From Bacteroidales bacterium (GTDB lineage: Bacteria; Bacteroidota; Bacteroidia; Bacteroidales; VadinHA17): DNA of 32,209 nucleotides. Positions within the stretch are counted from its first letter, which is position 1; each line of letters begins with the position of its first letter. Location: positions 1 through 32,209 of the forward strand of contig JAFGXX010000009.1 of the NCBI GenBank assembly GCA_016936435.1. Direction: 5' to 3'. This document shows positions 5,241 through 26,682 of this stretch, in pieces. The translations under genes were made by a program, and so were the position numbers. Below the pieces are notes generated by a model. It did not search any database, was not told the origin of the DNA, and saw nothing but the letters and a program-made list of their open reading frames with translations.

Positions 5241-5260
5241 GATGTAGAATTTTTATTTGA

Positions 5261-6937: not shown

Positions 6938-6963
6938 AATAGAAATATGAATTTATCATGTCA

Positions 6964-8433
6964 TTAATTAATACTACCTGCTTTTCTTCTGTTTGCTCCC
7001 GGGCTTTTTGTCAGATTGTCTCCCAGGTCTTTTCTCGCTTCTTCTGCAAGTTCCAGAAGTTCTTTAACCTTTTCAGGGTAAAATTCGGCAACATTGTACC
7101 ATTCACCCGGATCACGGCGCAGATCATAGAGTTCGGGTTCGCTTATTTTTTCATTTGCTGTGGGTCCGGGCCAGCCGTCAACACCGGGTTTTTTACCTCT
7201 GTAGGTCCTGCCGTTATGAGGCAGAATGAGTTTCCAGAAATCGCGCTGAACGGCTTCGAGATTATTCTGCTGATAATAATAATAGAATTCACGTCGTGGC
7301 GATGCTTTTTTGTCGCCGGTCATCAGGGGAAGTATGTTTACCCCGTCGATTTTTTTCTCAGGCAGGGGGGCTCCCGTTATTGCGGCCAGAGTAGGAAGGA
7401 TATCTATTGATGATGCCAGCTGGTTACAGATATCGCCTGCGGGGATGACTCCCGGCCACCTCATTATGCAGGGAACGCGCTGACCTCCTTCCCAGCTTGT
7501 GCCCTTTCCTTCGCGAAGGCCTCCCGTCGTTCCTGCATGGTTCCCGAAGTTAAGCCAGGGGCCGTTATCGCTGGTAAAAATGATGAGAGTATTTTTTTCA
7601 AGGCCATTGTTCTCCAGAGCTTTCATTATTTCTCCTATCGACCAGTCGACCTCCATCATCACATCGCCGTAAAAACCCTGTTTGCTTTTTCCCCTGAATT
7701 TATCCGAAACGCCCAATGGTATATGTACCATAGAATGAGGTATATACAGGAAGAAATGTTCTTTTTTGTGTCTTTCGATAAAATCTACGGCACGTTCGGT
7801 ATAATCAGTAGTCAGTTTATCCTGTCCGGCCAGATCAGGCACCTCTCCCACTTTCTCATTACCTTCTATAAGAGGAAGAACAGGATATTTCATTTTGTTG
7901 CTGGTGCTATCCTTAAGGTGGATAGGCACCCCGTCGAAATCGACAGGCCACATGTCGTTGGAATACGGAATGCCATAATACTCGTCGAATCCATGTTGCA
8001 GGGGGAGGAACTGGCGATGGTGTCCGAGATGCCATTTCCCGATGATACCGGTCGAATAACCTTTCGTTTTGAGCATCTCAGCAATAGTTGTCTCATCGGA
8101 ATTTATTCCATTCTGAGCCCATGGCATCAATGCGCCCGATATACCTATCCGGTTCGGATAACATCCAGTCATCAGTCCTGCCCTTGATGCACTGCTGACA
8201 GCCTGTGGACAGTAGTACCAGGTAAACTGCATTCCCTGATTTGCCAGCCTGTTCAGATTCGGGGTATCGTACTGGTTAGACCCCGTACGGCCTATGTCGC
8301 CGTAACCCATGTCGTCCATCAGGATCAGGATGATATTGGGGGTTGACTGTTTTAATCCGGTGCTTTTCTGGCTACAGCCCGGCAGCGCGGCAAGAGATGC
8401 GGCGCCGATACAGGTTAGTGATTTGAGATTCAT
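6964..8433 (-). CDS. S1-type arylsulfatase, Ser-type motif (SSASR)
   Basis: 489-aa ORF. PNIILILMDDMGYGDIGRTGS; SSASRAGLMTGCYPNR; GKWHLGHH; FTSDNGPWLNFGNHAG. Confidence 0.95.
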   Translation of the reverse strand: MNLKSLTCIGAASLAALPGCSQKSTGLKQSTPNIILILMDDMGYGDIGRTGSNQYDTPNLNRLANQGMQFTWYYCPQAVSSASRAGLMTGCYPNRIGISGALMPWAQNGINSDETTIAEMLKTKGYSTGIIGKWHLGHHRQFLPLQHGFDEYYGIPYSNDMWPVDFDGVPIHLKDSTSNKMKYPVLPLIEGNEKVGEVPDLAGQDKLTTDYTERAVDFIERHKKEHFFLYIPHSMVHIPLGVSDKFRGKSKQGFYGDVMMEVDWSIGEIMKALENNGLEKNTLIIFTSDNGPWLNFGNHAGTTGGLREGKGTSWEGGQRVPCIMRWPGVIPAGDICNQLASSIDILPTLAAITGAPLPEKKIDGVNILPLMTGDKKASPRREFYYYYQQNNLEAVQRDFWKLILPHNGRTYRGKKPGVDGWPGPTANEKISEPELYDLRRDPGEWYNVAEFYPEKVKELLELAEEARKDLGDNLTKSPGANRRKAGSIN

Positions 8434-8468
8434 TTCCGGTAATATTTTATTGCTGGTTAATTGTAAGT

Positions 8469-9980
8469 TCAGGGATTAAGGGTTTTGTTTTTCCAGGCAG
8501 GATTGGGCAACATCATTCTGGCGTTGTTTTTCTTTCTCCAATCGGCCAACAAGTTAAATAATTCATTCTTTTTTTCAGGGTTTGACGCTGAAATATCATT
8601 TGTTTCAGAAATATCGGCTTCAAGATCGTACAGTTCAAGTCTCTCTCTTTCGAAATTATCAATAAGCTTGTACCTGCCGAGCCTCACCGCGCTTCCTGGT
8701 TCGACGCCCTGGTTTGAATAATGCGGATAATGCCAGAAGAGGGGGCGTTCGGCAAGCGAAGCTCCGGTGAGCAAAGGCATGATGCTTATGCCGTCGATAT
8801 CGGTGACAGGAGATACTGAACCTGTCATCTCCATTATTGTCGGAAAGAAATCTATTGATGACACAGGAGCTGATTCTGTGCTGCCTGCTTTTTCTGCCGA
8901 AGGATGTCTGATGATAAGAGGCACTCTTATACCGCCCTCATAAAGCCATCCTTTTCCGGCCCTGAGGGGTGAGTTGCATGTGGGAGATCCTTCAGAAGTT
9001 GAGAGTCCTCCGTTGTCGGAGGTGAAGATAATTATTGTGTTATCATATAGTTTTGATTCTTTTAGCTTATCAATAAGTCGTCCCACATTTTCATCGACAC
9101 TCCAGATCATTCCGGCATATACAGGATTGCTATGGATTATTCTCTCCTTGAAATTGTTGCTCATCTCCGGTCTTATCCATTCTTTGTCCCTGGTAAATGC
9201 TTCCCTGCTGTCGAGGCCCATGGAGACCGCTTTATCAGTAAATTTCTTAATATGCTCTTTTTTTGCCTGCATGGGATTATGGACGGCATAATATGAAAGG
9301 TAAAGGAAGAAAGGATTCTTCCCTGTTTCTTCGATGAATTTTATAGCTTCATCTGTCTGCCTGTCGGTCAGATATTCACCCTCCGGTCCATCTTCGAGTC
9401 TCGGATTGCCATACGGTGAGAAAAAGCCGTTGGCAGTCTTATTCCTCACCGGCGATCCTTTGCTGAAACCTCCGCTGTTGACATCAAAACCCTGATATTC
9501 AGGCCAGTATTCCTCTGTTTCACCCAGGTGCCATTTCCCTGAGATCATGGTCCGGTAACCGTTCTGTTTCAGAGCTTCAGCAAGAGTCACCTCTTCGAGT
9601 CTTAAATTAAGATTAAAGGGCAGAGCCACAAGCTTATCATCAGGTAAGCCGCTTTTTGATGCCTGTCGCCCCGGTATCCAGTCGGTAATGCCGGTTCTGA
9701 CGGTATATTTACCTGTCATAACAGATGAGCGTGTTGGCGAGGAGACGGGGCATGAAGCATAAGCGTCGGTGAACCGGATGCCTTCTGAGGCCAGCCTGTC
9801 GATATTGGGGGTTTCGTAGAAAGTACTGCCATAGCAACCCAGGTCGGTATAACCCATATCATCGAGAAGTATGAAAACTACGTTTGGTTTCTCCGACGAA
9901 TTATTGCATGAGTTTAGTCCAGCAGCCAAGGGGATCATCGCAAGCGTGGCTGCACCGGCTTTTAGTTTGGTACTGAACAT
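8469..9980 (-). CDS. S1-type sulfatase, Ser-type motif (SSPTR)
   Basis: 503-aa ORF. PNVVFILLDDMGYTDLGCYGS; SSPTRSSVMTGKY; GKWHLGETEEYWPEYQGFD; FTSDNGGLSTSEGSPT. Confidence 0.95.
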   Translation of the reverse strand: MFSTKLKAGAATLAMIPLAAGLNSCNNSSEKPNVVFILLDDMGYTDLGCYGSTFYETPNIDRLASEGIRFTDAYASCPVSSPTRSSVMTGKYTVRTGITDWIPGRQASKSGLPDDKLVALPFNLNLRLEEVTLAEALKQNGYRTMISGKWHLGETEEYWPEYQGFDVNSGGFSKGSPVRNKTANGFFSPYGNPRLEDGPEGEYLTDRQTDEAIKFIEETGKNPFFLYLSYYAVHNPMQAKKEHIKKFTDKAVSMGLDSREAFTRDKEWIRPEMSNNFKERIIHSNPVYAGMIWSVDENVGRLIDKLKESKLYDNTIIIFTSDNGGLSTSEGSPTCNSPLRAGKGWLYEGGIRVPLIIRHPSAEKAGSTESAPVSSIDFFPTIMEMTGSVSPVTDIDGISIMPLLTGASLAERPLFWHYPHYSNQGVEPGSAVRLGRYKLIDNFERERLELYDLEADISETNDISASNPEKKNELFNLLADWRKKNNARMMLPNPAWKNKTLNP

Positions 9981-10006
9981 TTTTTCTGCTTCTTTTTAAA
10001 GTTTTG

Positions 10007-11527
10007 TCAATTTTGTTTTCTGATACTCTGAAGAAGCTCCTTCATCCCGGTCAAAATCTCAGGATTTTGTTCTGCGATGTTGGTTGTTTCACCGGGATCG
10101 GTCTTCAGATTGTATAGCTGTGGAAGAGTGTCGTTGCCGAGTTCAATATTTACGTTGACATTCACTTTTGGTCCGGGGCCGGGTTCGATATATTTCCATT
10201 CATCTTTTCTTACACCGAGGCGTCCGTTTGAAGCGTGCTCCACGAGCCATTCCCGGTCTTTTTTTGATTTTCCGAGAAGTATATCGATATTATTTTGGCT
10301 GTCGGGTGCTCCTTCAGCAGGGATAACCTGGCCTGTAAGGGCAGCTAATGATGCAAGAAAGTCGATCTGGCTGAAAAGAGCATCTGAAACTCCCTGTTTA
10401 ATCTTCCTTTCCCAGCTTACTATAAGAGGTATACGGGTGCCACCTTCGAAGGCACTGTATTTGCCTCCTCTCAGTTTGCCGGCAGGTTTGTGGTCACCGA
10501 GAAGTTCAACCGCCCTGTCCTTATAGCCGTCGTCCACCACAGGACCGTTGTCGCTGGACAGTATAATAATGGTTTTTCGAGCAAGGCCGAGTTTTTCAAC
10601 AGTATTCAGTATTTCACCCACCGACCAGTCGAATTCGAGTATGGCATCTCCCCTTGGTCCCATCCCACTTTTGCCTTCAAATCTCTGGTTTGGCATCCTG
10701 GGCACGTGTATGTCGTGTGTTGCAAAGTAGAGGAAGAATGGTTTGTCACGGTTGTTCTCAATGAATTTCACAGCCTTGTCCGTTATTACGTCAGCCATGT
10801 CCTCGTCTACCCACAAAGCCGATCTTCCTCCTGTCATATAGCCTATACGGCTCACTCCGTTCACGATTGTCATATCGTGTCCGTGACTGGGATGCATTTT
10901 CAGGAGTTCAGGATTCTCACGGCCTGTAGGCCAGTCACCCACCTTTTCTCTGAAGCTTACCTGTATGGGATCGGAAGGATCCAGTCCTGATACCCTGCGG
11001 TTTTCTACATAAACACATGGTACCCTGTCTCCGGTAGCCGGAATGATGTAACTATAGTCGAAACCTATGTCAAGTGGCTGATGAGTTATGTCACTGTTCC
11101 AGTCAGGTCCTCCTGCCGGTCCCAGTCCGAGGTGCCATTTTCCGATTACTGCTGTCGTGTATCCTGCATTCCTCATTAAGGAGGCGACGGTGAATCTTCC
11201 GGGTGCAATTATCGCAGATGCATCACCCGGCAAAACTCCTGTCCCTTTTTTTCTGAAAGCATACTCACCTGTGAGGAGAGAGTAGCGCGAAGGGGTGCTG
11301 GTGGCAGAAGTACAATGGGCATTCGTAAACCGGAGGCCACCAGCGGCAAGGCGGTCTGTATTTGGAGTTGACAGATTTGATCCATAGCAACTTAAATCGC
11401 CGTATCCGATGTCGTCAGCATAGATCAGGATGATATTAGGACTGTCAGTGGTCTTACATCCTGAAAGGGCAAGCGCGGCCGTTGAAAGTACACCTATGGT
11501 GCGTGGTATGATACTGTATTTTTTCAT
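10007..11527 (-). CDS. S1-type arylsulfatase, Ser-type motif (STPSR), lipoprotein-like signal
   Basis: 506-aa ORF. LALSGC lipobox-like; PNIILIYADDIGYGDLSCYGS; STPSRYSLLTGEY; GKWHLGLG; LSSDNGPVVDDGY. Confidence 0.95.
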   Translation of the reverse strand: MKKYSIIPRTIGVLSTAALALSGCKTTDSPNIILIYADDIGYGDLSCYGSNLSTPNTDRLAAGGLRFTNAHCTSATSTPSRYSLLTGEYAFRKKGTGVLPGDASAIIAPGRFTVASLMRNAGYTTAVIGKWHLGLGPAGGPDWNSDITHQPLDIGFDYSYIIPATGDRVPCVYVENRRVSGLDPSDPIQVSFREKVGDWPTGRENPELLKMHPSHGHDMTIVNGVSRIGYMTGGRSALWVDEDMADVITDKAVKFIENNRDKPFFLYFATHDIHVPRMPNQRFEGKSGMGPRGDAILEFDWSVGEILNTVEKLGLARKTIIILSSDNGPVVDDGYKDRAVELLGDHKPAGKLRGGKYSAFEGGTRIPLIVSWERKIKQGVSDALFSQIDFLASLAALTGQVIPAEGAPDSQNNIDILLGKSKKDREWLVEHASNGRLGVRKDEWKYIEPGPGPKVNVNVNIELGNDTLPQLYNLKTDPGETTNIAEQNPEILTGMKELLQSIRKQN

Positions 11528-11556
11528 TATCTCAGGTTATGTCGGGTTTTTTAAGG

Positions 11557-11616
11557 CATTCCAATAACATATATTTTGAAAAGTGGAATGGATATACTCC
11601 GTCAATAAATCCATTC
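11557..11616. repeat. Three-segment inverted repeat with mutually exclusive pairings between two sulfatase genes
   Basis: CATTCCA (11557-11563) is complementary to TGGAATG (11584-11590). The overlapping GAATGGAT (11586-11593) is complementary to ATCCATTC (11609-11616). Confidence 0.4.
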
Positions 11617-11644
11617 TCCTGTTTTAGAGAAGCCGGCTGTTCTG

Positions 11645-13075
11645 TTACTTCGGCTCAAATGAAAACGGGAACACGCTGGAGGGGACGTGTGCTTCCTCCA
11701 TGATCTCTTCCATTCTTTTAACAATGTCGGGGTTCTGGCCGGCAACATTGTTCTTTTCGCCAATATCGGTTGAGAGATCATAGAGTTCGGTCATACCCCG
11801 CGGAGTTTTGTCGACATCTCTCCTTACTGCTTTCCAGTTGCCCATTCTTACGGCAACTTTTCCGCCCTGCTCATGGAATTCCCAGTAGAGATATTCATGC
11901 TGGTCTTTCTGCTCTTTTCCGAGAAGTGTGGGAAGGAATGATATACCGTCAATATTTTCGGGAGGTTCTATGCCTGTAATATCAGCGAGAGTAGGCATAA
12001 CATCCCAGAAAGCTGATATATGATCTGTCCGCGATCCGGCGCTGATATTCCCCGGCCACATTGCCAGCATGGGAGTCCTGATGCCTCCCTCGTACATGTC
12101 GCGCTTATAACCGGTAAGTGGACCGTTGCTGTCGAAATAGTCAGGATCGGCACCGCCTTCAAGGTGGGGGCCGTTGTCGGATGCGAATATCACAATGGTG
12201 TTATCTTCCAGACCCAGTTCAGTGATTTTATCCAGTACTTCGCCAACGTAGTCGTCGAGATGTTTTATCATTGCGGCAAAAGCTGCATGGGCTTCAGGTT
12301 GTGATCCATAGCCTCCTTTCCTGTATCTTGGACCTTCATCGACACCCTTATAAGATTTTTCAGGTTCGAATTTACCCCGGAAAAGAGCCATATTTTCTTC
12401 GCGGGCAAAAAGTTCTGCATGGGGTATTATGTTTGGGTAGAATAAGAAGAAGGGTTTTGTGCGGTTTTCTTCAATGAATTTCATGGCAGCTTCATGTATC
12501 ATGTCGGGAGCATAAACTCCGGTGGCATTACCCTCATTTTCAGGGATCATAATTTTTTCATGATTATGCCACAGATAATACGGATAATAGTTATGTGCCA
12601 GGCTCTGGCAGTTGAAACCGAAGAATTCATCGAAGCCCTGGGCATTCGGATCGCCTTCAGTATCGATATATCCAAGTCCCCATTTACCAAATGCACCGGT
12701 AGTATAACCTGCTGTCCTGAGCATTTCGGCTATCGTTACAGATTCGGCAGGAAGCGGCCATTGTCCTTCAGGCTTCCAGCCTTTGTTGCCTCTTATCGGA
12801 GTGTGGCCCGTGTGCAGACCTGTCATAAGACTGGAGCGTGAGGGTGCGCTGACGGTGCAGCCGGTATAATGCTGTGTAAAAAGCATTCCCATTTCGGCGA
12901 TCCTGTCGATGTTAGGAGTGGAAAAATTTTTCTGACCGTAACAGCTAAGGTCTCCGTAGCCCAGATCGTCGGCCAGGATATACACAATATTTGGAAGGCG
13001 GGCTTCTTTTCCCGACTGGGTACAGCTTGCTGCTGCAACAGAGGCAAGGAGAATTAATGAGGTGGTGGGTTTCAT
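11645..13075 (-). CDS. S1-type arylsulfatase, Ser-type motif (SAPSR)
   Basis: 476-aa ORF. PNIVYILADDLGYGDLSCYGQ; SAPSRSSLMTGLHTGHTPIRGN; GKWGLG; FASDNGPHLEGG. Confidence 0.95.
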   Translation of the reverse strand: MKPTTSLILLASVAAASCTQSGKEARLPNIVYILADDLGYGDLSCYGQKNFSTPNIDRIAEMGMLFTQHYTGCTVSAPSRSSLMTGLHTGHTPIRGNKGWKPEGQWPLPAESVTIAEMLRTAGYTTGAFGKWGLGYIDTEGDPNAQGFDEFFGFNCQSLAHNYYPYYLWHNHEKIMIPENEGNATGVYAPDMIHEAAMKFIEENRTKPFFLFYPNIIPHAELFAREENMALFRGKFEPEKSYKGVDEGPRYRKGGYGSQPEAHAAFAAMIKHLDDYVGEVLDKITELGLEDNTIVIFASDNGPHLEGGADPDYFDSNGPLTGYKRDMYEGGIRTPMLAMWPGNISAGSRTDHISAFWDVMPTLADITGIEPPENIDGISFLPTLLGKEQKDQHEYLYWEFHEQGGKVAVRMGNWKAVRRDVDKTPRGMTELYDLSTDIGEKNNVAGQNPDIVKRMEEIMEEAHVPSSVFPFSFEPK

Positions 13076-14512: not shown

Positions 14513-15754
14513 ATGAATAAGAAATTATTTTTAGCGGCAGTTTTATTAACCATACTGTATGGATTTTCGACCGGACAGTCTGTTTATGGATGGAGAGGAG
14601 AAGGGCGTAGCGGTATCTATGCCGGAACTTCTCTTTTGAAGACATGGCCGGGGTCAGGACCTGCCCTGATATGGGAGACAGAGGAAATTGGTCCGGGATT
14701 TTCAAGTGCAACGGTGACTGCCGATGCTGTCTATATTACCGGAAGCAGGGACGGAAATGACATTTTATATGCATTTGCTCAGGACGGAAAGAAAAAATGG
14801 GAAACTGTTTACGGAAAAATATCCAGGAGCAATTATCCTGAAGCGAGGTGTACTCCCACCTTCTATAACAATAAACTATATGTAGTAAGTGGTGAAGGCG
14901 ATATGGTTTGCATCGACAGGAATGGTAAACTGGTTTGGACGGTGAACTATTTCAGGCAGTACGGAGCCCAGGCTCCCCGTTTTGGCATTTCTGAATCTCC
15001 TGTTGTTGTCGATAATCTTGTTATCGGTACTCCCGGCGGTAACATGGCTGCGATGGTTGCCTTTAATACTGAGACCGGTAAAGTTGTATGGGAAACTCCT
15101 TCACTCAATGAGGGTACGCATTATGTCAACCCTCTGCTCATAAGGGAAGGTAACAAAAAAATGATAGTAACACTTGCAACGGCACACGTGTATGCTGTCG
15201 ACCCGGCAAACGGGAAGATGTTATGGAAATATAACTATGAAGCTGCCAACGCAGTACAGGGAGGAAGAAGGAATCACACAAACACGCCACTATATAAGGA
15301 TGGCTTTCTCCTGGTCGCAAACGGCTATGAGCAGACAGCTGTGAAGCTAAAGATCAACTGGGATGGCAGGCCGCCGGAACTGGTATGGAAGAACACTGAC
15401 CTTACTCCTCATGTAGGCGGGCTGGTGCTCCTTGGCAACCATATCTTCAGTACAACCCATGATAACAATTCAATGGGAAGGTGGATTTGTGTAGACTGGA
15501 ATACAGGCAAGACGAACTGGATAAACCCGTGGTACAACAAAGGATCGGTGATCAGTGCCGGCGGTATGTTGTACATTTATGAAGAGAAGACCGGTCATGT
15601 CGGACTTATGAAAGCCGATCCTTCAAAAATGGACGTTGTGAATGAATTCAGAATCACAAAAGGTACAGGCCCTTACTGGGCTCATCCGGTGATAGACAAC
15701 GGAAGGCTTTTCATAAGGCACGGAGGCTATCTGGCAGTCTATTCAATCAAATAA
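14513..15754 (+). CDS. Secreted PQQ-like (BamB-type) beta-propeller protein
   Basis: 413-aa ORF with signal peptide. Repeats such as AFNTETGKVVWETPS, AVDPANGKMLWKYNY, CIDRNGKLVWTVNY. Confidence 0.9.
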   Translation: MNKKLFLAAVLLTILYGFSTGQSVYGWRGEGRSGIYAGTSLLKTWPGSGPALIWETEEIGPGFSSATVTADAVYITGSRDGNDILYAFAQDGKKKWETVYGKISRSNYPEARCTPTFYNNKLYVVSGEGDMVCIDRNGKLVWTVNYFRQYGAQAPRFGISESPVVVDNLVIGTPGGNMAAMVAFNTETGKVVWETPSLNEGTHYVNPLLIREGNKKMIVTLATAHVYAVDPANGKMLWKYNYEAANAVQGGRRNHTNTPLYKDGFLLVANGYEQTAVKLKINWDGRPPELVWKNTDLTPHVGGLVLLGNHIFSTTHDNNSMGRWICVDWNTGKTNWINPWYNKGSVISAGGMLYIYEEKTGHVGLMKADPSKMDVVNEFRITKGTGPYWAHPVIDNGRLFIRHGGYLAVYSIK

Positions 15755-15819: not shown

Positions 15820-17280
15820 ATGTCTAAGCCAGGATCAGCTGCCATAGTTATGACCAGCCTTGCAGCATTGCTTTTTGGAGCATTGCTTTTATGGTGGCTG
15901 CTTGATGACCACTACCAGTCAGATCTTGTGTTGAGGAAGCCAGGAATGGACAACCGTCCAAAGCAGGAACCCAGGTCTGATTCAGTTATTATAGGCGAGT
16001 TTTATGACTCCCTGGGTATTATTGACGGGATTGTGTCAGGAGAATGGCCCAGGTTCAGGGGTATTCATTTTGACAACATCAGCAGGGATAGCACTCCGCT
16101 TGCTGAGTCGTGGGATTCGGCAGGGCCTCCGGTAGTTTGGAAAGTAACACTGGGAGAAGGGTATGCCGGGGCAGCGGTGAGCAGGGGTCGTGTGTACGTA
16201 ATGGACTATAACGAAAGGAGAAAAGCCGATATGTTAAGGTGCTTTTCCCTGAAATCAGGCACAGAACTCTGGCGGCGATGGTATTATGCCGACATGAAAA
16301 GGAATCACGGCTATTCAAGGACTATTCCTGCAGTCACTGATGATTATCTGGTTACTATCGGGCCACGATCGCATGTGATGTGTGTCAATCCTGTATCGGG
16401 TGACCTTTTATGGACGATTGATCTTGAAAAGGAATACGGTATCCCGGGAGATGAAAAGGGAAGAATTACCCCTGATTTTTACTCAGGTCAGTGCCCGCTG
16501 ATCGATAATGGTGTTGCCATACTTGCTCCGGGAGGCAGGGCGATAATGACCGGCGTGGACTGTGCCACGGGGAAGGTACTATGGGAGACACCCAACCCCG
16601 ATCTTTTCAGGATGTCGCACGGATCGATAATTCCCATGATCATTCACGGCAGGAGGATGTATGTATATAATGCTGTCGGCGGGGTGATAGGTGTTTCGGC
16701 GGAAGATGCAGACAGAGGCCAGCTTCTATGGGAAACAAAGGAGTGGAGCCCGCCTACCACTGCAGCCTCTCCTCTCCTCCTTGAAGATAACGAGATTGCA
16801 GTTTTTGGCAGTTACGGCGCTGGTGGTGCGAGGATAAAAATCGGTTTTGACGGTTCAGAATTCACTGCCCGGGTTGTGGAATCGCACAGGGCATCTGAAG
16901 GCATTGCAAGCGACCAGCAGACTCCAATAATAAAAGATGGTCATATCTGGTCGGTAGCTCCTGAAAATGCGGGTCCCCTGAAAAAACAGCTGGTATGTTA
17001 CGCTGTTTCCGACCTTACAAAACCAGTATGGACCAGCGGAAAAGAAAACAGGTTTGGACGCGGGCTGGGCCCCTATATCATCAGTGGTGACAGGATGTTT
17101 CTTCTGGATGATGACGCAAATCTCTTTTTGCTTAATTTGGCCGGACCCTCTGCCACGATTGTATCAAAAGCAAGGATCACAACGGGTGTCGAAGCCTGGG
17201 GACCGATGGCAATTGCCGGCAGATACCTCATTATGAGGGATTCGAGAACAATGGTTTGTCTTGATATAGGAAAAAACTGA
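15820..17280 (+). CDS. Membrane-anchored PQQ-like beta-propeller protein
   Basis: 486-aa ORF. N-terminal TM (AAIVMTSLAALLFGALLLWWLL); WPRFRGIHFDNIS; repeats NPVSGDLLWTIDL, DCATGKVLWETPN. Confidence 0.9.
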   Translation: MSKPGSAAIVMTSLAALLFGALLLWWLLDDHYQSDLVLRKPGMDNRPKQEPRSDSVIIGEFYDSLGIIDGIVSGEWPRFRGIHFDNISRDSTPLAESWDSAGPPVVWKVTLGEGYAGAAVSRGRVYVMDYNERRKADMLRCFSLKSGTELWRRWYYADMKRNHGYSRTIPAVTDDYLVTIGPRSHVMCVNPVSGDLLWTIDLEKEYGIPGDEKGRITPDFYSGQCPLIDNGVAILAPGGRAIMTGVDCATGKVLWETPNPDLFRMSHGSIIPMIIHGRRMYVYNAVGGVIGVSAEDADRGQLLWETKEWSPPTTAASPLLLEDNEIAVFGSYGAGGARIKIGFDGSEFTARVVESHRASEGIASDQQTPIIKDGHIWSVAPENAGPLKKQLVCYAVSDLTKPVWTSGKENRFGRGLGPYIISGDRMFLLDDDANLFLLNLAGPSATIVSKARITTGVEAWGPMAIAGRYLIMRDSRTMVCLDIGKN

Positions 17281-17283
17281 AAT

Positions 17284-18207
17284 ATGAATAAGAAACTGAT
17301 AGCTGTTTTCTCTCTCCTGGTGATCCTTACTTTCATAGGATATATTATCGTAGATACCGTAAAATCCGGAAGTTCAATGCCCTCAGAGACAACTGCAGAG
17401 GAGGAAATTGAATACCCCGACATGTGGAATGTGACAAAGGAGATCACAGTCACAGATGGTTCCCTTAAAGCCGTCACCGTATCTGACATCGGAGAAGTAT
17501 TTGCCGGAGGAAATGCCTTCGTATCATGCTATGATACAGCGATGACGAAAAAATGGAGTGTCAGAACACCTTCATCTGTCACAGCTCTTGCCATCGATGG
17601 TGACACACTCTATGCTGCATCGGCAGAGACTATTTTCCTGATTGGCACTGACGGAAAGATAATTACCGAATGGGGGCCTTATGAGGCCAACAGCTTCATA
17701 ACCTCCGTTTCGGTTTATGGTGATCACGTGGCTTTCGCCGACGCCGGAATAAAAAGAATATTCATACTCGAAAAAGACGGACAGGTTTCTGCCATGATAG
17801 GACATGCTGATGCCAGTCTTATAATCCCGAGTCCTTACTTTGATGTTGCCCTTGGCGCGGGAAACCTCCTATACCTGGCCAATACAGGCAACAGGAGGAT
17901 AGAAACATGGACCACCGGCGGGAAATATCTGGATGCTTTCGGTGAAGCGGGAACAGCGCCTGACGCTTTCTGCGGGTGTTGTAATCCTGCTCATTTTATA
18001 ATAGTGCCACAGGGATTCATTACAGCCGAGAAAGGTATTAACCGCATAAAGATACTGGATAAGTCAGGGAGTTTTGTCGAATATGTATCGGCCAGAAACG
18101 ATTTCACCCCGGGGGTGCCACTCGATATTGCTTCTTCTGACGGCATTACAATATATGCTGCTGACAGTGAAGATTCACGATTATATGTTTTCAGGAGAAA
18201 CCGGTAA
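17284..18207 (+). CDS. Membrane-anchored NHL/6-bladed beta-propeller-like protein with FCGCCNPAHF motif
   Basis: 307-aa ORF. N-terminal TM; NHL-like repeats (LLYLANTGNRRIETWTTGGKYLDAFG, FITAEKGINRIKILDKSGSFVEYV); Cys cluster at about 17968-17997. Confidence 0.8.
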   Translation: MNKKLIAVFSLLVILTFIGYIIVDTVKSGSSMPSETTAEEEIEYPDMWNVTKEITVTDGSLKAVTVSDIGEVFAGGNAFVSCYDTAMTKKWSVRTPSSVTALAIDGDTLYAASAETIFLIGTDGKIITEWGPYEANSFITSVSVYGDHVAFADAGIKRIFILEKDGQVSAMIGHADASLIIPSPYFDVALGAGNLLYLANTGNRRIETWTTGGKYLDAFGEAGTAPDAFCGCCNPAHFIIVPQGFITAEKGINRIKILDKSGSFVEYVSARNDFTPGVPLDIASSDGITIYAADSEDSRLYVFRRNR

Positions 18208-18219
18208 TAAACGAATGAA

Positions 18220-18399
18220 ATGAATATCAGGAGATCAGATTTTATCAGAACATCTTTCAGAATTGCCATATCCCTTATCCTGGCACTTGTCGCCGGATTA
18301 TTGAGTACAAAAGTATCGGTGGCCCGGGATTGTTCAAAATGCCCCGGAAAAGGAAAATGCGGGGGAGAACATGAATGTGAACTGTATTTAAGGAAGTAA
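18220..18399 (+). CDS. Small (59-aa) exported Cys-rich protein, absent from the supplied ORF track
   Basis: ATG at 18220, TAA at 18397-18399: MNIRRSDFIRTSFRIAISLILALVAGLLSTKVSVARDCSKCPGKGKCGGEHECELYLRK. Hydrophobic signal segment then C-x2-C-x5-C-x5-C. Sits between co-directional genes at 18207 and 18454. Confidence 0.72.
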   Translation: MNIRRSDFIRTSFRIAISLILALVAGLLSTKVSVARDCSKCPGKGKCGGEHECELYLRK

Positions 18400-18453: not shown

Positions 18454-19029
18454 ATGAAAAATGAAAAAAATATATACCAGTCGAGAAGAGACTTTGTAAG
18501 GAAAGCCGGGCGGGTTCTGGTTGTGGCACCACTGGTGGCTGTTCCCCTGGCGCTGGCTAAAAAGACCACTGCCTCGGGTTATGTATGGCAGATCGATCCC
18601 TTCAAATGCACTCAATGCGGACAATGTAAAACCCATTGTGTCAAAACGCCGTCTGCAGTTAAATGTGTTCATGCTTATGTTATGTGCGGCTACTGTGACC
18701 TGTGCGGAGGCTATCTGCGGCAGGGGGTAAAGACGATCAGCACCGGAGCAGAGAATCAGTTATGTCCGACCGGGGCCATTGTCAGAAGGTTTGTGGAAGA
18801 ACCATATTTTGAATATACAATAGACGAAGATCTGTGTGATGGCTGCGGTAAATGCGTCAAGGGATGCAAGGATTTCGGCAACGGCTCGCTTTATTTACAG
18901 ATAAACCAGTCGCTTTGTGATAATTGCAATGAGTGTTCCATTGCAAGAAGCTGTCCTGCGCAGGCAATATCACGGGTACCCGCCGATATGCAGTATATTC
19001 CGAAGGAGCGTGAAGAAGGGCATTCCTGA
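18454..19029 (+). CDS. Tat-exported polyferredoxin ([4Fe-4S], NapG/DsrO-like architecture)
   Basis: 191-aa ORF. Tat motif SRRDFVRK plus hydrophobic stretch; CTQCGQCKTHC, CGYCDLC...CPTG, CDGCGKCVKGC, CDNCNECSIARSCPAQ. Confidence 0.9.
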   Translation: MKNEKNIYQSRRDFVRKAGRVLVVAPLVAVPLALAKKTTASGYVWQIDPFKCTQCGQCKTHCVKTPSAVKCVHAYVMCGYCDLCGGYLRQGVKTISTGAENQLCPTGAIVRRFVEEPYFEYTIDEDLCDGCGKCVKGCKDFGNGSLYLQINQSLCDNCNECSIARSCPAQAISRVPADMQYIPKEREEGHS

Positions 19030-19067: not shown

Positions 19068-20378
19068 TTGACAAAGGTGTATAAAGGATTAAAAAGATTC
19101 GATTTAAAAAAAAGTCTGCCTTACATGGTACTGGCCCTTATGCTTTTGTGGCAAACAGTAATGATGGCACAGGACAGGTTTCCCAGGCCTGAGTTTGAGT
19201 CGGGATATGAATATCCGGAACACCAGTTGCCTCTTCAAAGGGCTGTATGGCTTGAATATGTCGATGTGGCTGTGCTTATCGCTGCCCTGTCGGTTGCAGC
19301 ATGGCTGGCGCTGAAAAAAAGGTCGCGGAACGGTCTGGTATGGCTCGCTGTTTTCTCCCTTGCATATTTCGGTTTTTATCGCGAAGGGTGTATTTGTTCA
19401 GTAGGGTCGGTTCAGAATGTGGCTCTGGCCCTCTTCAATGGTAATTACACAATTCCTCTTACAGCTCTTCTTTTCTTTATTATTCCTCTTGTTTTCGCAC
19501 TATTGTTTGGAAGGGTGTTTTGTGCAGGGGTATGTCCGCTGGGAGCGATCCAGGAACTTACAGGATTCAGTCCCGTGAAGTTGCCGCGTGCAGTTGAATC
19601 GGTTATGGCTGCCATCCCTTTCATCTATCTTGCATTAACGGTACTGTTTGCTGCTACCGGAAGCCAGTTTATCATCTGCAGATACGATCCCTTTGTGGGT
19701 ATCTTCAGGCTTGACGCACCTTTCACGATGATAGTCTTCGGTATACTTCTGCTCCTGGCCGGTATTTTCATAAACCGCCCATATTGCAGATATTTATGTC
19801 CTTACGGTGTGCTTTTAAACTTATTTTCCAGGTTTTCATGGAGACATCTGTCTATAACGCCTGCAGAATGCACCGAATGTCGTCTTTGTGAAGATTCATG
19901 TCCCTATGATGTCATCCTGCCTCCCGAAAAGGCGGAATATGCCGGGGATACAACAGGGTCGAGAAAACGATTTTTGATTTACCTGGTTCTTATCCCGTTG
20001 TTCACTGCGGCAGGATCTGTTATTTTTTTCAATCTCGCTCCTGCCCTTTCCAAAGTAAACCCTGACGTAAAGCTGGCAATGGAAATACGGGAGGAGGTTG
20101 AAACGGGAACAGAAGCAACATCACTTGCCGCTGTGGCTTTTAAGGAGTCGGGCAGTACTGAAGAAGAGCTTTTCACCAGAGAAATGGATGTTATAAAGAA
20201 ATTCAGGAAAGCATCTCCGTGGGCAGGAGCCTTTCTTGGTCTGGCGCTGGGCATAGGCCTTGTATCGCTTACTATCAGAAGTTCCCGTACAGGTTATTCA
20301 CCGCACAGGGGCAAATGCTACAGTTGCGGAAAATGTTTCAGATATTGCCCGGTTCAGGTTAAAAAAGACAAAATATGA
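19068..20378 (+). CDS. NapH/NosR-like polytopic membrane [4Fe-4S] protein
   Basis: 436-aa ORF (TTG start in track). Multiple TMs; CAGVCPLGAIQE; CRYLCPYGVLL; CTECRLCEDSCPYDVI; CYSCGKCFRYCPV. Confidence 0.87.
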   Translation: MTKVYKGLKRFDLKKSLPYMVLALMLLWQTVMMAQDRFPRPEFESGYEYPEHQLPLQRAVWLEYVDVAVLIAALSVAAWLALKKRSRNGLVWLAVFSLAYFGFYREGCICSVGSVQNVALALFNGNYTIPLTALLFFIIPLVFALLFGRVFCAGVCPLGAIQELTGFSPVKLPRAVESVMAAIPFIYLALTVLFAATGSQFIICRYDPFVGIFRLDAPFTMIVFGILLLLAGIFINRPYCRYLCPYGVLLNLFSRFSWRHLSITPAECTECRLCEDSCPYDVILPPEKAEYAGDTTGSRKRFLIYLVLIPLFTAAGSVIFFNLAPALSKVNPDVKLAMEIREEVETGTEATSLAAVAFKESGSTEEELFTREMDVIKKFRKASPWAGAFLGLALGIGLVSLTIRSSRTGYSPHRGKCYSCGKCFRYCPVQVKKDKI

Positions 20379-22081
20379 GATTTGCTGAAAATGATATCAG
20401 AGTAATACGAAACATAAGTCAGGTAGCAGGTATCTTTACGCTTATTGTAGGTCTTTTGATGATCTTCAGCCTGATCCAGCTGAAGACTATCAATCCGCTC
20501 GATAATCCTGCCCTTCTCTCAGTGAAAGAACAATTCGATAAAGATCAGGAAAACGCGGTTCTGGCGGAACAGGTCAGGGCAATGGACCTGATGGCACGAA
20601 AAGCATATTTCTCATCACGAAGGCAGCTTGAGACCGGGTCATGGCTTATACTTGCCGGAGCCGTTGTTTTCATTATTTGTCAGAGGCTTATCGCGGGGAA
20701 TGAAAAAATTATGCCTGGAATACCAGGGTCGAAGCCCGACGAAGGACTCCGGCAGCAGAGATACAGAAAATATCTCACCGGCTCCGCTGTAGTGCTTACC
20801 GCAGGAGCGATATTGGCATCATTCCTCCTGCGCAGCAACCTTCCTGATCTGAGTGGTAACAGGGTAAAGGCATTATCAGCCAGGGAAGCCAGGAAAGCAC
20901 AGAGAGCAGCTACAAGGAATGAGTTTGATCCGGACGACACAAACTGGCCTGTTTTCAGGGGCGAAGACGGCAGAGGTATAGCCGGGGGATCGGGCTATCC
21001 TCTCAGCTGGAACGGTGAGGACGGAACAGGAGTGAAATGGAAGACAGTCATACCTTCCGATGGCAAGAGCTCGCCTGTAATATGGGGCGACAGGCTTTTC
21101 GTCACAGGAGCTGAAGAACTTGAATGCTTTGTTCACTGCTACGATAAGAATAATGGCACCTTACTGTGGACTTCTGCGGTCTCCGGTCTGCCGGGAGAAC
21201 CTGCGGAGCTCCCTAAAATGGACAGGGATGCCGGGCTTGCAGTTTCGTCGGCAGCGGTAAACGCGAAAGCTGTATGTGCAATCTTTGCAAACGGCAATCT
21301 AGCAGCCTTCGACCACGACGGAAATAGTAAATGGGCTTTTAACCTGGGAGTGCCTGCAAATATTTACGGTTATTCATCATCACTGATCATCCACGATGAC
21401 ATTCTGGTTGTACAGTATGATTCCGACGAAAAAATCTCCGTGATGGGTTATGACATAGAAAACGGAGAGTTGAAATGGGAGACACTGAGACAGGGTTCAC
21501 CCGCATGGTCGTCACCGGCAATAGGCATTTTTGGCGGGATAACACAGGTGATAATAAACGGAAATCCTTTTGTTTCAGCTTATGATCCTTCCGACGGGAA
21601 AGAGCTGTGGACAATAGACTGCATGTACGGTGATGTTGCCCCTTCACCTGCCATAAACAGCAGCATGGTTTTCTCAGTTACCGACTATTCGAACCTGGTA
21701 GCTATTGAAGCAGGAGTAACTCCTGTAATTAAATGGCAGGATAACAGCTACACCCCCGACATACCAAGTCCGGTGGCAACTGACGAATTTCTGTTCCTGG
21801 TAACAGGATATGGCGATGCAGTATGTTATAATACACAAACGGGAGACACTCTGTGGACACATTATTTCGGTGATCAGTTCTATTCGTCGCCAATAATTGC
21901 CGACGGCATGGTATGGTTCATGAACCGTAGCGGACTGATGCATATAGTAAAAGCTGCAGGCGCATATGAACCAGTCGCGGAATCACAGCTTGGAGAAGCG
22001 GTGGAGTGTACTCCTGCATTTTCGGATAAAAATATCTATATAAGAGGAAGAAAGAACCTATACTGCATTTCAGGCAAGTGA
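20375..22081 (+). CDS. Three-TM module fused to a PQQ-like beta-propeller
   Basis: 568-aa ORF. About three N-terminal TM segments; WPVFRGEDGRGIAGGSGYPLSWNGEDGTGVKWKT...SSPVIWGDRLFVTGA; repeats IENGELKWET, PSDGKELWTID. ATGA overlap with previous gene. Confidence 0.9.
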   Translation: MRFAENDIRVIRNISQVAGIFTLIVGLLMIFSLIQLKTINPLDNPALLSVKEQFDKDQENAVLAEQVRAMDLMARKAYFSSRRQLETGSWLILAGAVVFIICQRLIAGNEKIMPGIPGSKPDEGLRQQRYRKYLTGSAVVLTAGAILASFLLRSNLPDLSGNRVKALSAREARKAQRAATRNEFDPDDTNWPVFRGEDGRGIAGGSGYPLSWNGEDGTGVKWKTVIPSDGKSSPVIWGDRLFVTGAEELECFVHCYDKNNGTLLWTSAVSGLPGEPAELPKMDRDAGLAVSSAAVNAKAVCAIFANGNLAAFDHDGNSKWAFNLGVPANIYGYSSSLIIHDDILVVQYDSDEKISVMGYDIENGELKWETLRQGSPAWSSPAIGIFGGITQVIINGNPFVSAYDPSDGKELWTIDCMYGDVAPSPAINSSMVFSVTDYSNLVAIEAGVTPVIKWQDNSYTPDIPSPVATDEFLFLVTGYGDAVCYNTQTGDTLWTHYFGDQFYSSPIIADGMVWFMNRSGLMHIVKAAGAYEPVAESQLGEAVECTPAFSDKNIYIRGRKNLYCISGK

Positions 22082-24504
22082 GTGAAAAAGTGAAACATAT
22101 TGAAGAACATGGTTGCAACTGTCAGCCTGAACTCAAGTCAGATGATATAAAAACAGTTGTCAGCCAGGTGGTTGCTAAGTGCGGACGGGAAAAAGATAAG
22201 GTAATCCCGGTTCTCCAGGAGCTGCAGAAGAGGCTAAACTACATCCCATCGGAGGCATTAAAGGAGATCTGCAGGCTGACAGAGATAACTCCCGGCCAGA
22301 TTTCCGGGGTGTCAACATTCTATTCCCAGTTCAGGCACATTCCGGCAGGAAAACATATTATCAAAATATGTGCAGGCACAGCCTGCCATGTAAAAGGATC
22401 CGGCCTCATAACTGAGGCATTCCGACGCGAACTAAAGCTTGATGAAACGACATCCACATCCGCCGACGGGTTGTTTTCGATCGAGGAAGTAGCCTGTCTT
22501 GGATGTTGTACACTGGCGCCGGTAGTGCAGATTGACGGAAAAACTTACGGGCATGTCAAATCAACACAGGCTGCTGAAATACTGTATGATTTTATAAATA
22601 CGGGGAAACATCAAAAAGACCTTCATCAGGAGGTGGCCCCTGATGTTTATGATGCTGAAGTGAGGATAGGACTGGGCAGTTGCTGTGTTGCAGGAGGAAG
22701 CAGGGAGATACTCTCGCGTCTCTTCGAGGTTAAGGAAGCCTATGACCTTAATATAAAACTCAAACCTGTGGGTTGTGTGGGAGTCTGTAACCAGACTCCG
22801 TTGCTGGAGATAGTGATGAACGACAGCACCCATCACCGTTATACAAACGTGAAAATTGTCCAGGTAGAAGATATCCTTCTCAAGCATATAAAACCGGGAA
22901 AGTTTGGCAAGAGGCTCATTTACAGGATCAATGATTTTGCAGATTCATTTGTTCATGAGGGTAAACTTAACAGTCCCATTAACCTGCCAGGTGAGAAACG
23001 TGAAGAATTTCTGAATAATTTTCTCAGTTACCAGGTTCATATAGCAACGCAGCAGAGCGGTATACTGACTCCTGACTCGCTCGATGAATATATTCTTCTG
23101 GGTGGATTTGAAGCATTAAAAAAAGTACTTCGTCAGTCAGACAAGAGTGAGATAGCTGATATAATTCTGGAGAGTGGTCTAAGGGGAAGAGGTGGTGCAG
23201 GGTTTCCAACCGGAAAAAAATGGAAGATATTTTCGGAGTCTCCGGGTTCACCGAAGTACGTTGTATGTAACGGCGATGAAGGTGATCCGGGTGCTTTCAT
23301 GGACAGGATGCTTCTCGAGTCGTTTCCTTTCAGGGTTATAGAAGGAATGATGATAGCCGGTTTTGCAACCGGAGCTTCCGAAGGTATTTTCTACATCAGG
23401 GCGGAGTATCCACTTGCAGTGAGCAGAGTAAGCAACGCACTGAAGATCTGTTACGAGCGGGGGATGCTGGGAGATAATATCCTGAACACCACGTTTTCAT
23501 TCAACATCACGATTTTTGAGGGGGCCGGGGCTTTTGTCTGCGGCGAGGAAACGGCCCTTATAGCTTCGCTCGAAGGAAAAAGGGGAACCCCGATACTCAG
23601 ACCTCCCTACCCTGCTGTACAAGGCTTCAGAGAAAAGCCGACACTGGTGAACAATGTTGAAACACTTTCGCTGGTACCCTGGATAATAAATAATGGTCCG
23701 GAAGCTTTCAGTTCAATCGGAACCGAAAAAAGCAAAGGAACAAAGGTATTTGCCCTCGCCGGGAAAGTGGCCAGAGGAGGTCTCATTGAAGTACCAATGG
23801 GTATAACCATCAGAGACATCGTGGAAAAGATAGGATATGGAGTAGGTGATGGAAGAACTTTCAAGGCAGTTCAGATCGGAGGCCCTTCAGGGGGCTGTAT
23901 ACCTGCATCGATGGCCGATACACCCATAGATTATGAGGAACTGTCGCGAATGGGTGCAATGATGGGATCGGGAGGGCTGGTGGTTCTCGATGATACCGAC
24001 TGCATGGTTGACATGACAAAGTACTTTCTCACTTTCACACATAAGCAATCGTGCGGAAAATGTACATTTTGCCGGGTAGGTACACGACGCATGCTTGATA
24101 TATTAACGCTTCTGAGCCAGGGCAAGGCCGACATGAAGGAAATCGATGAACTGGAGAAACTATCATTTGAGGTAAGGAACGGCAGTCTCTGTGGACTGGG
24201 TAAGACCGCACCGAATCCGCTGATTACAGGTTTGAAGTATTTCAGGGAGGAATTCGAGGCTCATGCAAGAGGCTACTGTCCTGCCCGAAAGTGCCGCGAT
24301 CTGATAAAGTATGTGGTAAATGACAAATGTACCGGTTGTACAAAGTGTTCCCAGGACTGCCCTGTGGGAGCAATACCTTTTAGCCCTTATGAAATACATG
24401 TTATCGACCAGGATCTTTGTATTAAATGCGACAATTGCCGCATAACATGTCCCGAAGATGCCATTGAAATAGTTAATATCGCCGATGTACATAAAAATCA
24501 ATAA
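22078..24504 (+). CDS. NuoE-NuoF fusion (HydC+HydB / BfuC+BfuB-like) with C-terminal two-[4Fe-4S] ferredoxin domain
   Basis: 808-aa ORF, GTG start. NuoE [2Fe-2S] (CAGTACHVKGS, CLGCCTLAP); second thioredoxin-like [2Fe-2S] (GSCCVAGG, CVGVCNQTP); NuoF GLRGRGGAGFPTGKKW, NGDEGDPGAFMDR, SCGKCTFCRVGT; C-terminal CTGCTKCSQDCPVGAI and CIKCDNCRITCPEDAI. Confidence 0.95.
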   Translation: MSEKVKHIEEHGCNCQPELKSDDIKTVVSQVVAKCGREKDKVIPVLQELQKRLNYIPSEALKEICRLTEITPGQISGVSTFYSQFRHIPAGKHIIKICAGTACHVKGSGLITEAFRRELKLDETTSTSADGLFSIEEVACLGCCTLAPVVQIDGKTYGHVKSTQAAEILYDFINTGKHQKDLHQEVAPDVYDAEVRIGLGSCCVAGGSREILSRLFEVKEAYDLNIKLKPVGCVGVCNQTPLLEIVMNDSTHHRYTNVKIVQVEDILLKHIKPGKFGKRLIYRINDFADSFVHEGKLNSPINLPGEKREEFLNNFLSYQVHIATQQSGILTPDSLDEYILLGGFEALKKVLRQSDKSEIADIILESGLRGRGGAGFPTGKKWKIFSESPGSPKYVVCNGDEGDPGAFMDRMLLESFPFRVIEGMMIAGFATGASEGIFYIRAEYPLAVSRVSNALKICYERGMLGDNILNTTFSFNITIFEGAGAFVCGEETALIASLEGKRGTPILRPPYPAVQGFREKPTLVNNVETLSLVPWIINNGPEAFSSIGTEKSKGTKVFALAGKVARGGLIEVPMGITIRDIVEKIGYGVGDGRTFKAVQIGGPSGGCIPASMADTPIDYEELSRMGAMMGSGGLVVLDDTDCMVDMTKYFLTFTHKQSCGKCTFCRVGTRRMLDILTLLSQGKADMKEIDELEKLSFEVRNGSLCGLGKTAPNPLITGLKYFREEFEAHARGYCPARKCRDLIKYVVNDKCTGCTKCSQDCPVGAIPFSPYEIHVIDQDLCIKCDNCRITCPEDAIEIVNIADVHKNQ

Positions 24505-25561
24505 CATAGAATTTCATGCATCTGAGGGCGAGACGGTTCTCGATGTTGCACGCCGGGCAGGTATATCCATTCCGACTCTCTGCCATAAGGATGGTGTGGA
24601 GCATTATTCTTCCTGCATGGTCTGCCTTGTAAGGGACAGACGGAATAACAGTTATATCCCATCCTGTTCGGCACTGGTACAGGAAGGTATGGACATAGAT
24701 GCATCAGGTGATGATGTTAAGGAACTGAGAAGAAAAGCGGTAGAATTATTGCTGCTGGAACATCGCGCTGAATGTGAGGCTCCCTGTCGGGTGGTATGCC
24801 CGGCAGCTTATGATATTCCCCGGATGAACCGTCTTCTGTCAGCCGGCAGATTCAGGGAAGCCGTTGATCTTATAGTTTCTGAGCTTGCTACGCCTGAGAT
24901 AAGATGCCTCACCTGCGGAGCTTATTGCGAAAATGCATGCCGGAGAAAGAAAATAGATACCCCCATCTCAATAAGGAATATCAGGCTTTTTATTTTCGAC
25001 AAAATAAAAGAAGAAAAACTGTTTTCAGGTAGCGCTGCAGGAAGCGATGCAAGGTATTCCGCAAAGGAGGAACTCAAGAATCGATTTTCATCCCGCACAG
25101 GAAAACTAAATGACGCTGAACTGCGGCAATGGCTGAAAGAGTGTGACGGAATGTCAGAAAGGTACAGGGATATTACAAGTTTTGAACAGGCTTCTTCGGA
25201 AGCTGAAAGTTGCATGCATTGCGATTGCAGGGCAGCGGGGAACTGTGCTCTCAGGGCTGTGGCAGAAGATCTTTCTCTTAAGGATCCTGCCGGTAAACTT
25301 GTTAATTCCCCGATAAAGAAGAAGATAAACAAAAATACCGGTCTGATTTTTGAGAATGCGAAATGTATTAAGTGCGGCTTGTGCGTGAGAGTATGTGAGG
25401 ACAGTAACGATGAACCGGCACTTTGTTTTATCAACAGAGGTTTTGTGTCAATAATATCGGAACCTCTGACCGCGGAATTTGACGATATACTGGCAAGCCA
25501 GGCCCGCAAGGCAGTGGAGGTATGCCCTACCGGAGCATTGAGTTTTATTGAAAAGACATGA
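24485..25561 (+). CDS. NuoG/HydA-N-like iron-sulfur protein: [2Fe-2S] + Fer4_20-like Cys module + single [4Fe-4S]; no catalytic domain
   Basis: 358-aa ORF. CHKDGVEHYSSCMVC...SC [2Fe-2S]; CEAPCRVVCPAAYDIPRMNRLLSAGRFREAVDLIV...CLTCGAYCENACRRKKIDTPISIRNIRLFIFD; EAESCMHCDC; CIKCGLCVRVC...CPTGAL. Confidence 0.88.
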   Translation: MYIKINNIEFHASEGETVLDVARRAGISIPTLCHKDGVEHYSSCMVCLVRDRRNNSYIPSCSALVQEGMDIDASGDDVKELRRKAVELLLLEHRAECEAPCRVVCPAAYDIPRMNRLLSAGRFREAVDLIVSELATPEIRCLTCGAYCENACRRKKIDTPISIRNIRLFIFDKIKEEKLFSGSAAGSDARYSAKEELKNRFSSRTGKLNDAELRQWLKECDGMSERYRDITSFEQASSEAESCMHCDCRAAGNCALRAVAEDLSLKDPAGKLVNSPIKKKINKNTGLIFENAKCIKCGLCVRVCEDSNDEPALCFINRGFVSIISEPLTAEFDDILASQARKAVEVCPTGALSFIEKT

Positions 25562-26682
25562 ATAGAATAAGAAAAATCATATTAAATTTTCTTCTGTTGT
25601 CGCTTTATGGTCTTGCATCTGCTCAGACAGCGGCAGACAGCTGGTCTCTTTTCCGGGGGACCAGTGATCTTGCAGGGCTTGTCAGGGCTGAGCTTCCCTC
25701 CCGCCCTGAATTACTGTGGAATCTTTCAACAGGTTCGCGGACGAAATCATCACCTGTGGTAAGTGACGGGATGATCTTCTTTGGTGATGACAAAGGGATA
25801 CTTTATGCTGTGGGTGATGAAGGAAAGATAAGGTGGAAATTCGAAGCAGGAAGCGCCATCGAAGCTCCTCCCATGGTATATGCCGGACTTGTTATCGTCG
25901 GGACCGCCGACGGAAGTCTACGGGCCGTAAATAAGTCAACAGGAAAGCCTGAATGGATATATACAACAGACAATCAGATAGTTGGATCGGCAAATTTCTG
26001 GATCGCCGGGAAAAAGTCAGGAATAATATTCGGAAGTTACGACTATTTCCTTCACTGTGTCGATCCTGTTTCAGGCATGATGCTTTGGAAGCTCGAAACT
26101 GATAATTATGTGAATGGTACGCCGGCGGTGGGAAACAACAGAATAGTGTTCGGAGGCTGCGACGGTATAATCCGTCTTGTTGATCCTCTGACAGGTAAAG
26201 AACGTGATACCATCAACATAGGTGTATATATTGCGGCTTCTCCTGCCCTGTCGGATCAGAAGGCGTTTTTCGGGGATTATGACGGCAATTTTTATTGCAC
26301 CGACCTGGTCAGCGGCAAAGTAGTCTGGCGAATACCTCCGGGAGATAACTCCGGTGCCATTCTGGGAATTCCTGCAGTAGGGAATAATTACACCGTAATC
26401 GGCAATGAAGATAAATACCTTTATTGCTACGACACCCATACAGGTCGTCAGATATGGAAATACAGGACCAATGGCCGTGTTACGGGCTCGGCTGTGATAA
26501 CACCCACACAGGTTCTTTTCGGAAGCATGGACGGTTATGTGTATCTTGCAGGGCTGGCTGACGGGAAGAAAATATGGAGTTTTAATGCAGGCGGACCGCT
26601 GGGAAGTTCTCCGGCAGTTACGGGAAGCCGTTTTTATTTCCTCACTGAAGACGGCAGGTTGCTGGCCTTCGGGAACAGATAA
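25558..26682 (+). CDS. Secreted PQQ-like beta-propeller protein
   Basis: 374-aa ORF. Signal peptide ending GLASAQ; repeated blades (AVGDEGKIRWKFEAGSAIEAPPMV, CVDPVSGMMLWKLETD, CYDTHTGRQIWKYRTNGRVTGSAV). ATGA overlap with previous gene. Confidence 0.92.
   Translation: MNRIRKIILNFLLLSLYGLASAQTAADSWSLFRGTSDLAGLVRAELPSRPELLWNLSTGSRTKSSPVVSDGMIFFGDDKGILYAVGDEGKIRWKFEAGSAIEAPPMVYAGLVIVGTADGSLRAVNKSTGKPEWIYTTDNQIVGSANFWIAGKKSGIIFGSYDYFLHCVDPVSGMMLWKLETDNYVNGTPAVGNNRIVFGGCDGIIRLVDPLTGKERDTINIGVYIAASPALSDQKAFFGDYDGNFYCTDLVSGKVVWRIPPGDNSGAILGIPAVGNNYTVIGNEDKYLYCYDTHTGRQIWKYRTNGRVTGSAVITPTQVLFGSMDGYVYLAGLADGKKIWSFNAGGPLGSSPAVTGSRFYFLTEDGRLLAFGNR

Follow-up and report, generated by a model that had tools for sequence, protein, structure and literature searches.

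The locus analysed here raises the question whether a short frame, lying directly in front of the gene of an exported ferredoxin, encodes a protein, and if so, which part this protein plays beside the ferredoxin. The window, that is, the whole stretch of Bacteroidales DNA that was analysed (32,209 nucleotides), contains the frame on the + strand from the ATG at 18220 to the TAA ending at 18399, and its 59 codons translate to MNIRRSDFIRTSFRIAISLILALVAGLLSTKVSVARDCSKCPGKGKCGGEHECELYLRK. From the N to the C terminus the predicted peptide carries NIRRSDFIR, an uncharged stretch of 16 residues and a tail with the Cys layout C38-x2-C41-x5-C47-x5-C53 (18331-18378, + strand). An initial annotation had described a complete ATG-TAA frame of 59 residues with NIRRSDFIR, a hydrophobic segment and C-x2-C-x5-C-x5-C, and our translation agrees with it. 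It had also observed that the frame was missing from the ORF track, which is explained by the usual cut-off of 60 residues; an ORF listing at 50 residues recovers 18220-18399.

Conservation and selection

As a control for chance, 14,340 ORFs of 45-100 residues were collected from 200 base-shuffled windows. Not one of these showed a hydrophobic stretch followed by either of the two exact four-Cys layouts of the family, and 18220-18399 was the sole ORF in the window that combined both features. A profile search of the window's own genome returned the peptide in a single copy (1.2e-20).

The initial annotation had taken the peptide for a possible partner of the exported ferredoxin, and had suggested looking for the frame and its four Cys in related genomes and estimating Ka/Ks. 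We scanned genomes with the ferredoxin and took the best 80 of 226 homologous loci, all titled Bacteroidota or Bacteroidales; as one of them (L066) starts within the ferredoxin, 79 were assessable. Among these best 80 of 226, 76 of the 79 assessable loci showed, adjoining the ferredoxin gene on its 5' side, a short ORF that encodes a leader, a hydrophobic stretch and four Cys; in the remaining 3 the leader of the peptide was fused to the ferredoxin. Pairwise codon comparison of 146 peptide pairs at least 62% identical gave a pooled pN of 0.165 and a pooled pS of 0.627; such pairs share branches and are hence non-independent, and the direction was uniform. The dN/dS of the peptide was mostly about 0.05-0.2 in the alignable pairs, around 0.1, which indicates purifying selection on the frame. 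Both checks came out in favour of the frame, and the proposed partnership is borne out by its position.

The frame at 18220-18399 is a real, conserved gene under purifying selection, and a chance ORF is ruled out by the shuffles, the conservation and the dN/dS. The mean column identity of the peptide alignment was 39% and the peptide of the window was only about 20-42% identical to the others (alignment A1), indicating that the peptide evolves fast outside its fixed points.

Distribution

The ferredoxin was found in 48 of 295 order-level genomes. A separate adjoining peptide accompanied it in 26 of these, a fusion that retains the Cys in 3 and a leader-only fusion in 1; the other 18 had neither. 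No credible peptide match was detected away from the ferredoxin gene in any of the 295 genomes, which again agrees with the proposed partnership, and the other weak matches to the peptide profile were ferredoxin leaders, a frame with stops and part of an ORF of 1841 residues. Of those among the 18 that were examined, most retained the rest of the operon. One of them (L133) has at the place of the peptide an ORF of 94 residues with one hydrophobic segment and a longer tail rich in Cys and His, which may be a divergent relative of the peptide.

Nine genomes of the same genus gave no significant peptide match: seven of these had no ferredoxin, one had a ferredoxin cut at the contig end and one had a divergent ferredoxin and no peptide. 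The records of many same-genus contigs recur among L031-L072, and the two counts are not additive. In a phylum-wide sample of 396 genomes, both ferredoxin and peptide were absent except in the window's own genome, so that the range of the system seems limited to certain parts of the order. Genome G005 carries two copies of the peptide-ferredoxin pair, on contigs C201 and C176 (L201, L206).

The four-Cys tail

In alignment A1 (54 rows) R5, C38, C47 and C53 were invariant, and F8 and R14 near-invariant. Counted from the first Cys, the register was +3/+9/+15 (the clade of the window) or +6/+9/+15 (the sister layout) in 96 of 101 sequences, meaning that the first, third and fourth Cys are fixed in spacing and only the second shifts. 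Mapped on the ferredoxin tree, the +3 state requires 2 changes; it formed a single group in 69% of the bootstrap trees. Constant spacing of three Cys together with a mobile second one suits ligands of a single site, and with four near-invariant Cys in fixed register, binding of a metal or an Fe-S centre, as suggested in the initial annotation, is plausible. In the AlphaFold model the tail had a pLDDT of about 60.

A lipoprotein signal was also considered. The pattern [LVI]-[ASTVI]-[GAS]-C was not found before the first Cys of the tail, which reads VARDC in the window, and in most relatives this Cys is directly preceded by a charged or polar residue.

The iron-sulfur loop of Endonuclease III and MutY has the layout C-x6-C-x2-C-x5-C, and a loop as short as this can hold a [4Fe-4S] cluster. 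The sister-clade layout C-x5-C-x2-C-x5-C differs from it by one residue in the first gap, a resemblance only, whereas the layout of the window, C-x2-C-x5-C-x5-C, is different and the peptide has no glycosylase domain. The Endonuclease III-type register, +7/+10/+16, was found in neither peptide layout, and a profile of the loop gave one weak match (E 0.17), in one member of the peptide family.

Other candidates were tried among known families. No Pfam or NCBIfam family matched the peptide above its cut-off, no solved structure was related to it by sequence (best E 3.7), and no description of the peptide or of the operon was found in a literature search. The FeoB-associated Cys-rich membrane protein (PF12669) likewise combines an N-terminal hydrophobic helix with a short Cys-rich tail, but membership was rejected (best E 0.011, 16.4 bits against a gathering cut-off of 27) and its gene context differs. 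Matches to defensin-like, CDPF1, FeoB-associated and BufA2 models were all weak, below the cut-offs where these are given, and driven by the Cys.

The leader and its export

Alignment A1, hydropathy and AlphaFold together predict a Tat-like leader and helix at residues 5-31 (18232-18312, + strand), with a pLDDT of 87-96 across residues 1-30. The initial annotation had read a twin-Arg start as the export signal of the peptide, one residue off the Tat consensus. The offset is right: in the alignment R5 and S6 occupy the first-Arg and second-Arg positions of the Tat motif, respectively, the R4-R5 pair is out of register, and the peptide of the window lacks the R-R before x-F of S-R-R-x-F-L-K. The export signal itself is unsupported in this lineage. 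In the +3 clade, to which the window belongs, the second-Arg position is Arg in 0/41 and Lys in 5/41 members, and a twin-Arg signal of the peptide's own is ruled out there by the register. The next gene had been credited with a canonical SRRDFVRK, and the ferredoxin does retain this motif.

In the +6 sister layout the second-Arg position is Arg in 27/59 members (R-R-x-F) and Lys in 28/59. The Arg of these 27 members and that of all three Cys-retaining fusions make Tat export plausible for the family as a whole, and the genome encodes the Tat translocase (TatC, PF00902, E 9.6e-66). One reading is a Tat leader that may have lost its second Arg in the lineage of the window, or the reverse change.

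The ferredoxin and its natural fusions

The ferredoxin gene (18454-19029, + strand) encodes a predicted Tat-exported protein whose 17 Cys would suffice for about four [4Fe-4S] sites, and a NapG-like role is suggested by its Fer4 families, its Cys list, alignment A2 and the fusions. The AlphaFold model of the ferredoxin had a pLDDT of 42, and its solved relatives were two, both weak.

In three genomes from three families (L172, L173 and L174), peptide and ferredoxin are one protein, as expected of the partners proposed initially. These proteins consist of an R-R-x-F leader, a hydrophobic stretch, C-x5-C-x2-C-x5-C and the mature ferredoxin, with no second leader, and such a layout places tail and ferredoxin in one compartment, held at 1:1. 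The fusions thus place the Cys tail on the ferredoxin's side of the membrane. All three fall in one supported clade, so that they may represent one event; the clade also contains L179, which has no Cys tail.

In a second type of fusion the ferredoxin carries the leader of the peptide but not its Cys tail (L087, L088, L090 and L129, one fully supported clade). Compared with the best peptide leader, these leader-only fusions scored 103 and 94, far above the 57 and 52 obtained with the best ferredoxin leader. As read from such fusions, the peptide leader can evidently replace the ferredoxin's own. In these proteins (L087:3859-4434, L088:5013-5588, L090:5013-5588, and L129) the leader that takes the place of the ferredoxin's Tat leader has R-K and not R-R, and they could show, as a natural experiment, whether export of an Fe-S protein is possible with an R-K leader. 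At L110 an inserted ORF (MLRKQMTKAELIVWEILKGKKML...) lies between the peptide (4025) and the ferredoxin (4965); we take it to resemble a DUF559-type endonuclease.

Gene neighbourhood

The peptide gene lies 12 bases 3' of a gene for an NHL-like propeller and 54 bases 5' of the ferredoxin gene. The genes around it are all on the + strand with short gaps or overlaps and look like one operon. On the 5' side these are two BamB/PQQ-like propellers, at 14513-15754 (PF13360, 2e-25) and, with an N-terminal anchor and as a conserved neighbour, at 15820-17280 (PF13360, 4e-19), followed by the NHL-like propeller at 17284-18207, which is predicted from weak NHL/PQQ/ScyF matches and a kept operon position. 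The latter has an N-terminal hydrophobic anchor and the motif GFCGCCNP, seen as GCCNP in relatives both with and without the peptide.

On the 3' side of the ferredoxin a NapH/NosR-like membrane iron-sulfur protein is encoded at 19068-20378 (Fer4_5, 5.2e-17), with two CX3CP loops (C152-C156P and C240-C244P) and two C-x2-C-x2-C-x3-CP sites, at 268-278 and 417-427. Next come a membrane-anchored BamB/PQQ-like propeller, also a conserved neighbour (20375-22081; PF13360, 4e-25), a NuoE-NuoF fusion with a C-terminal ferredoxin domain, i.e. an NADH dehydrogenase module (22078-24504; TIGR01959, 1e-134; TIGR01958, 3e-33), a short NuoG/HydA-like 2Fe-2S and 4Fe-4S protein (24485-25561; PF13510, PF14691, PF22117) and a BamB/PQQ-like propeller as the last gene in this run of short gaps and overlaps (25558-26682; PF13570, 3e-48; PF13360, 2e-36), all on the + strand.

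In most loci the order is propeller, propeller, NHL-like protein, peptide, ferredoxin, NapH-like protein, propeller, NuoEF-like protein. In a subset that includes L062, L064 and L067-L072, the third propeller is followed directly by PQQ4 with no NuoEF-like gene, and the peptide is kept, which points to the ferredoxin/NapH pair as its partner. From the gene order, the predicted NADH module (22078-25561 in the window) is optional in the operon. In L044 and L053 an extra PQQ1-like propeller (33-34% identical) lies after the NHL-like gene, immediately 5' of the peptide. Six consecutive sulfatase-like genes on the - strand (3663-13075) adjoin the redox operon in the window, and in L035, L056, L069, L071 and L072 the operon likewise has sulfatase genes at its side.

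Possible role of the peptide

NapH-like proteins transfer electrons through the membrane, either to periplasmic enzymes or from them (PMC8238504), and the CX3CP motifs of NapH are reportedly required for holding NapG at the membrane (PMC5928378). As in NapG/NapH modules, together with NosR, RdhC and MauMN, the window has a Tat-exported multi-[4Fe-4S] ferredoxin adjoining a membrane protein in which two CX3CP loops are combined with ferredoxin sites. The membrane protein stays below the NapH cut-off, however (TIGR02163, 4e-16, 59 against 213 bits), and the ferredoxin below the NapG cut-offs (14-16 against 179-269 bits). The window has no nitrate reductase, and propellers and NuoEF-like genes surround the pair instead; no periplasmic acceptor enzyme was identified in the operon. 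The literature found describes no such Cys4 peptide as a partner of NapG/NapH. In its working the peptide would, by analogy, be most like a NapG/NapH accessory.

The peptide is very probably a small component of an electron-transfer complex that has so far been overlooked. Our main reading, to which we give a probability of about one half, is that it is an accessory subunit of a NapG/NapH-like complex, with a putative Cys4 metal site that docks or relays for the ferredoxin. The N-terminal leader would be retained as an anchor that keeps the peptide at the cytoplasmic membrane, its tail facing the periplasm. There the four Cys would form one compact site against the exported ferredoxin, probably with a metal and most likely as an Fe-S centre. 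The peptide may then dock the ferredoxin on the NapH-like protein, relay electrons between both, or do both, with the electrons probably passing from NADH, through the NuoEF/NuoG-like proteins where these are present, to a periplasmic acceptor. The 18 ferredoxin genomes without a recognised peptide, together with the one lineage without the Cys tail, imply that the Cys site is not indispensable. Since the tail was lost in one lineage and the peptide in several, a non-essential peptide that tunes or stabilises the complex is suggested. A bolder version, which we regard as tentative and rather doubtful, is that these Cys4 peptides of about 60 residues are a new family of true one-cluster redox relays between the NapH-like protein and the exported ferredoxin. 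The conduit to which they belong would be rich in propellers and linked to NADH, and would drive a periplasmic reaction in anaerobic Bacteroidales.

It is unlikely that the peptide is mainly a structural anchor or dock, with a helix that fastens the ferredoxin to the membrane and with Cys that form disulfides or a zinc knot of no redox function. The leader-only fusions, in which the tail is gone, fit such an anchor, as does the shift of the second Cys, but the four Cys are the most conserved residues of the tail across about 100 sequences in spite of the low mean column identity. The hosts, moreover, come mainly from digesters, sediments and fens, where the use of disulfides would be less expected.

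An assembly factor is improbable as well. Here the Cys would supply the ferredoxin or the NapH-like protein with iron or sulfur, and the peptide would stay outside the finished complex, like NqrM (DUF539, PF04400), a small membrane-bound protein whose gene shares an operon with a membrane Fe-S redox machine, the Na+-NQR (PMC12174285). The peptide shares this build and position, and its being dispensable in some lineages would suit such a factor. Membership of the NqrM family was nevertheless rejected, as no PF04400 match was found at E up to 1 among 54 members of the peptide family; the PF04400 search of the genome gave no match anywhere, controls included, and carries no weight. Three lineages have the peptide fused 1:1 to the ferredoxin. 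As a catalytic maturation factor is not usually built in this way, the fusions favour a subunit.

Cleavage of the leader to free a periplasmic, Cys-rich peptide of 24 residues that buffers metal or shuttles electrons is very improbable. In its favour, a site satisfying the -3/-1 signal-peptidase rule is present in 41/41 testable members of the window's clade (SVA|RD in the window), the hydrophobic stretch has only 15-16 residues and one weak similarity is to the BufA2 metallophore model (best 0.001, 3 members), but the site is kept in only 59% of the sister clade and in 0/3 Cys-retaining fusions, and the neighbourhood contained no recognisable modification genes of the bufferin type.

The accessory subunit of a NapG/NapH-like complex is our preferred reading, and the natural fusions are ready-made stable constructs with which a redox subunit could be tested. 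With a product of 59 residues the gene is too short for common length cut-offs, but in this group of Bacteroidales it accompanies the ferredoxin in nearly all cases. If it encodes a redox subunit, few known Fe-S relay proteins would be as small as the peptide, which would mark an undescribed route from NADH to the cell surface by which mostly uncultured bacteria may move electrons.
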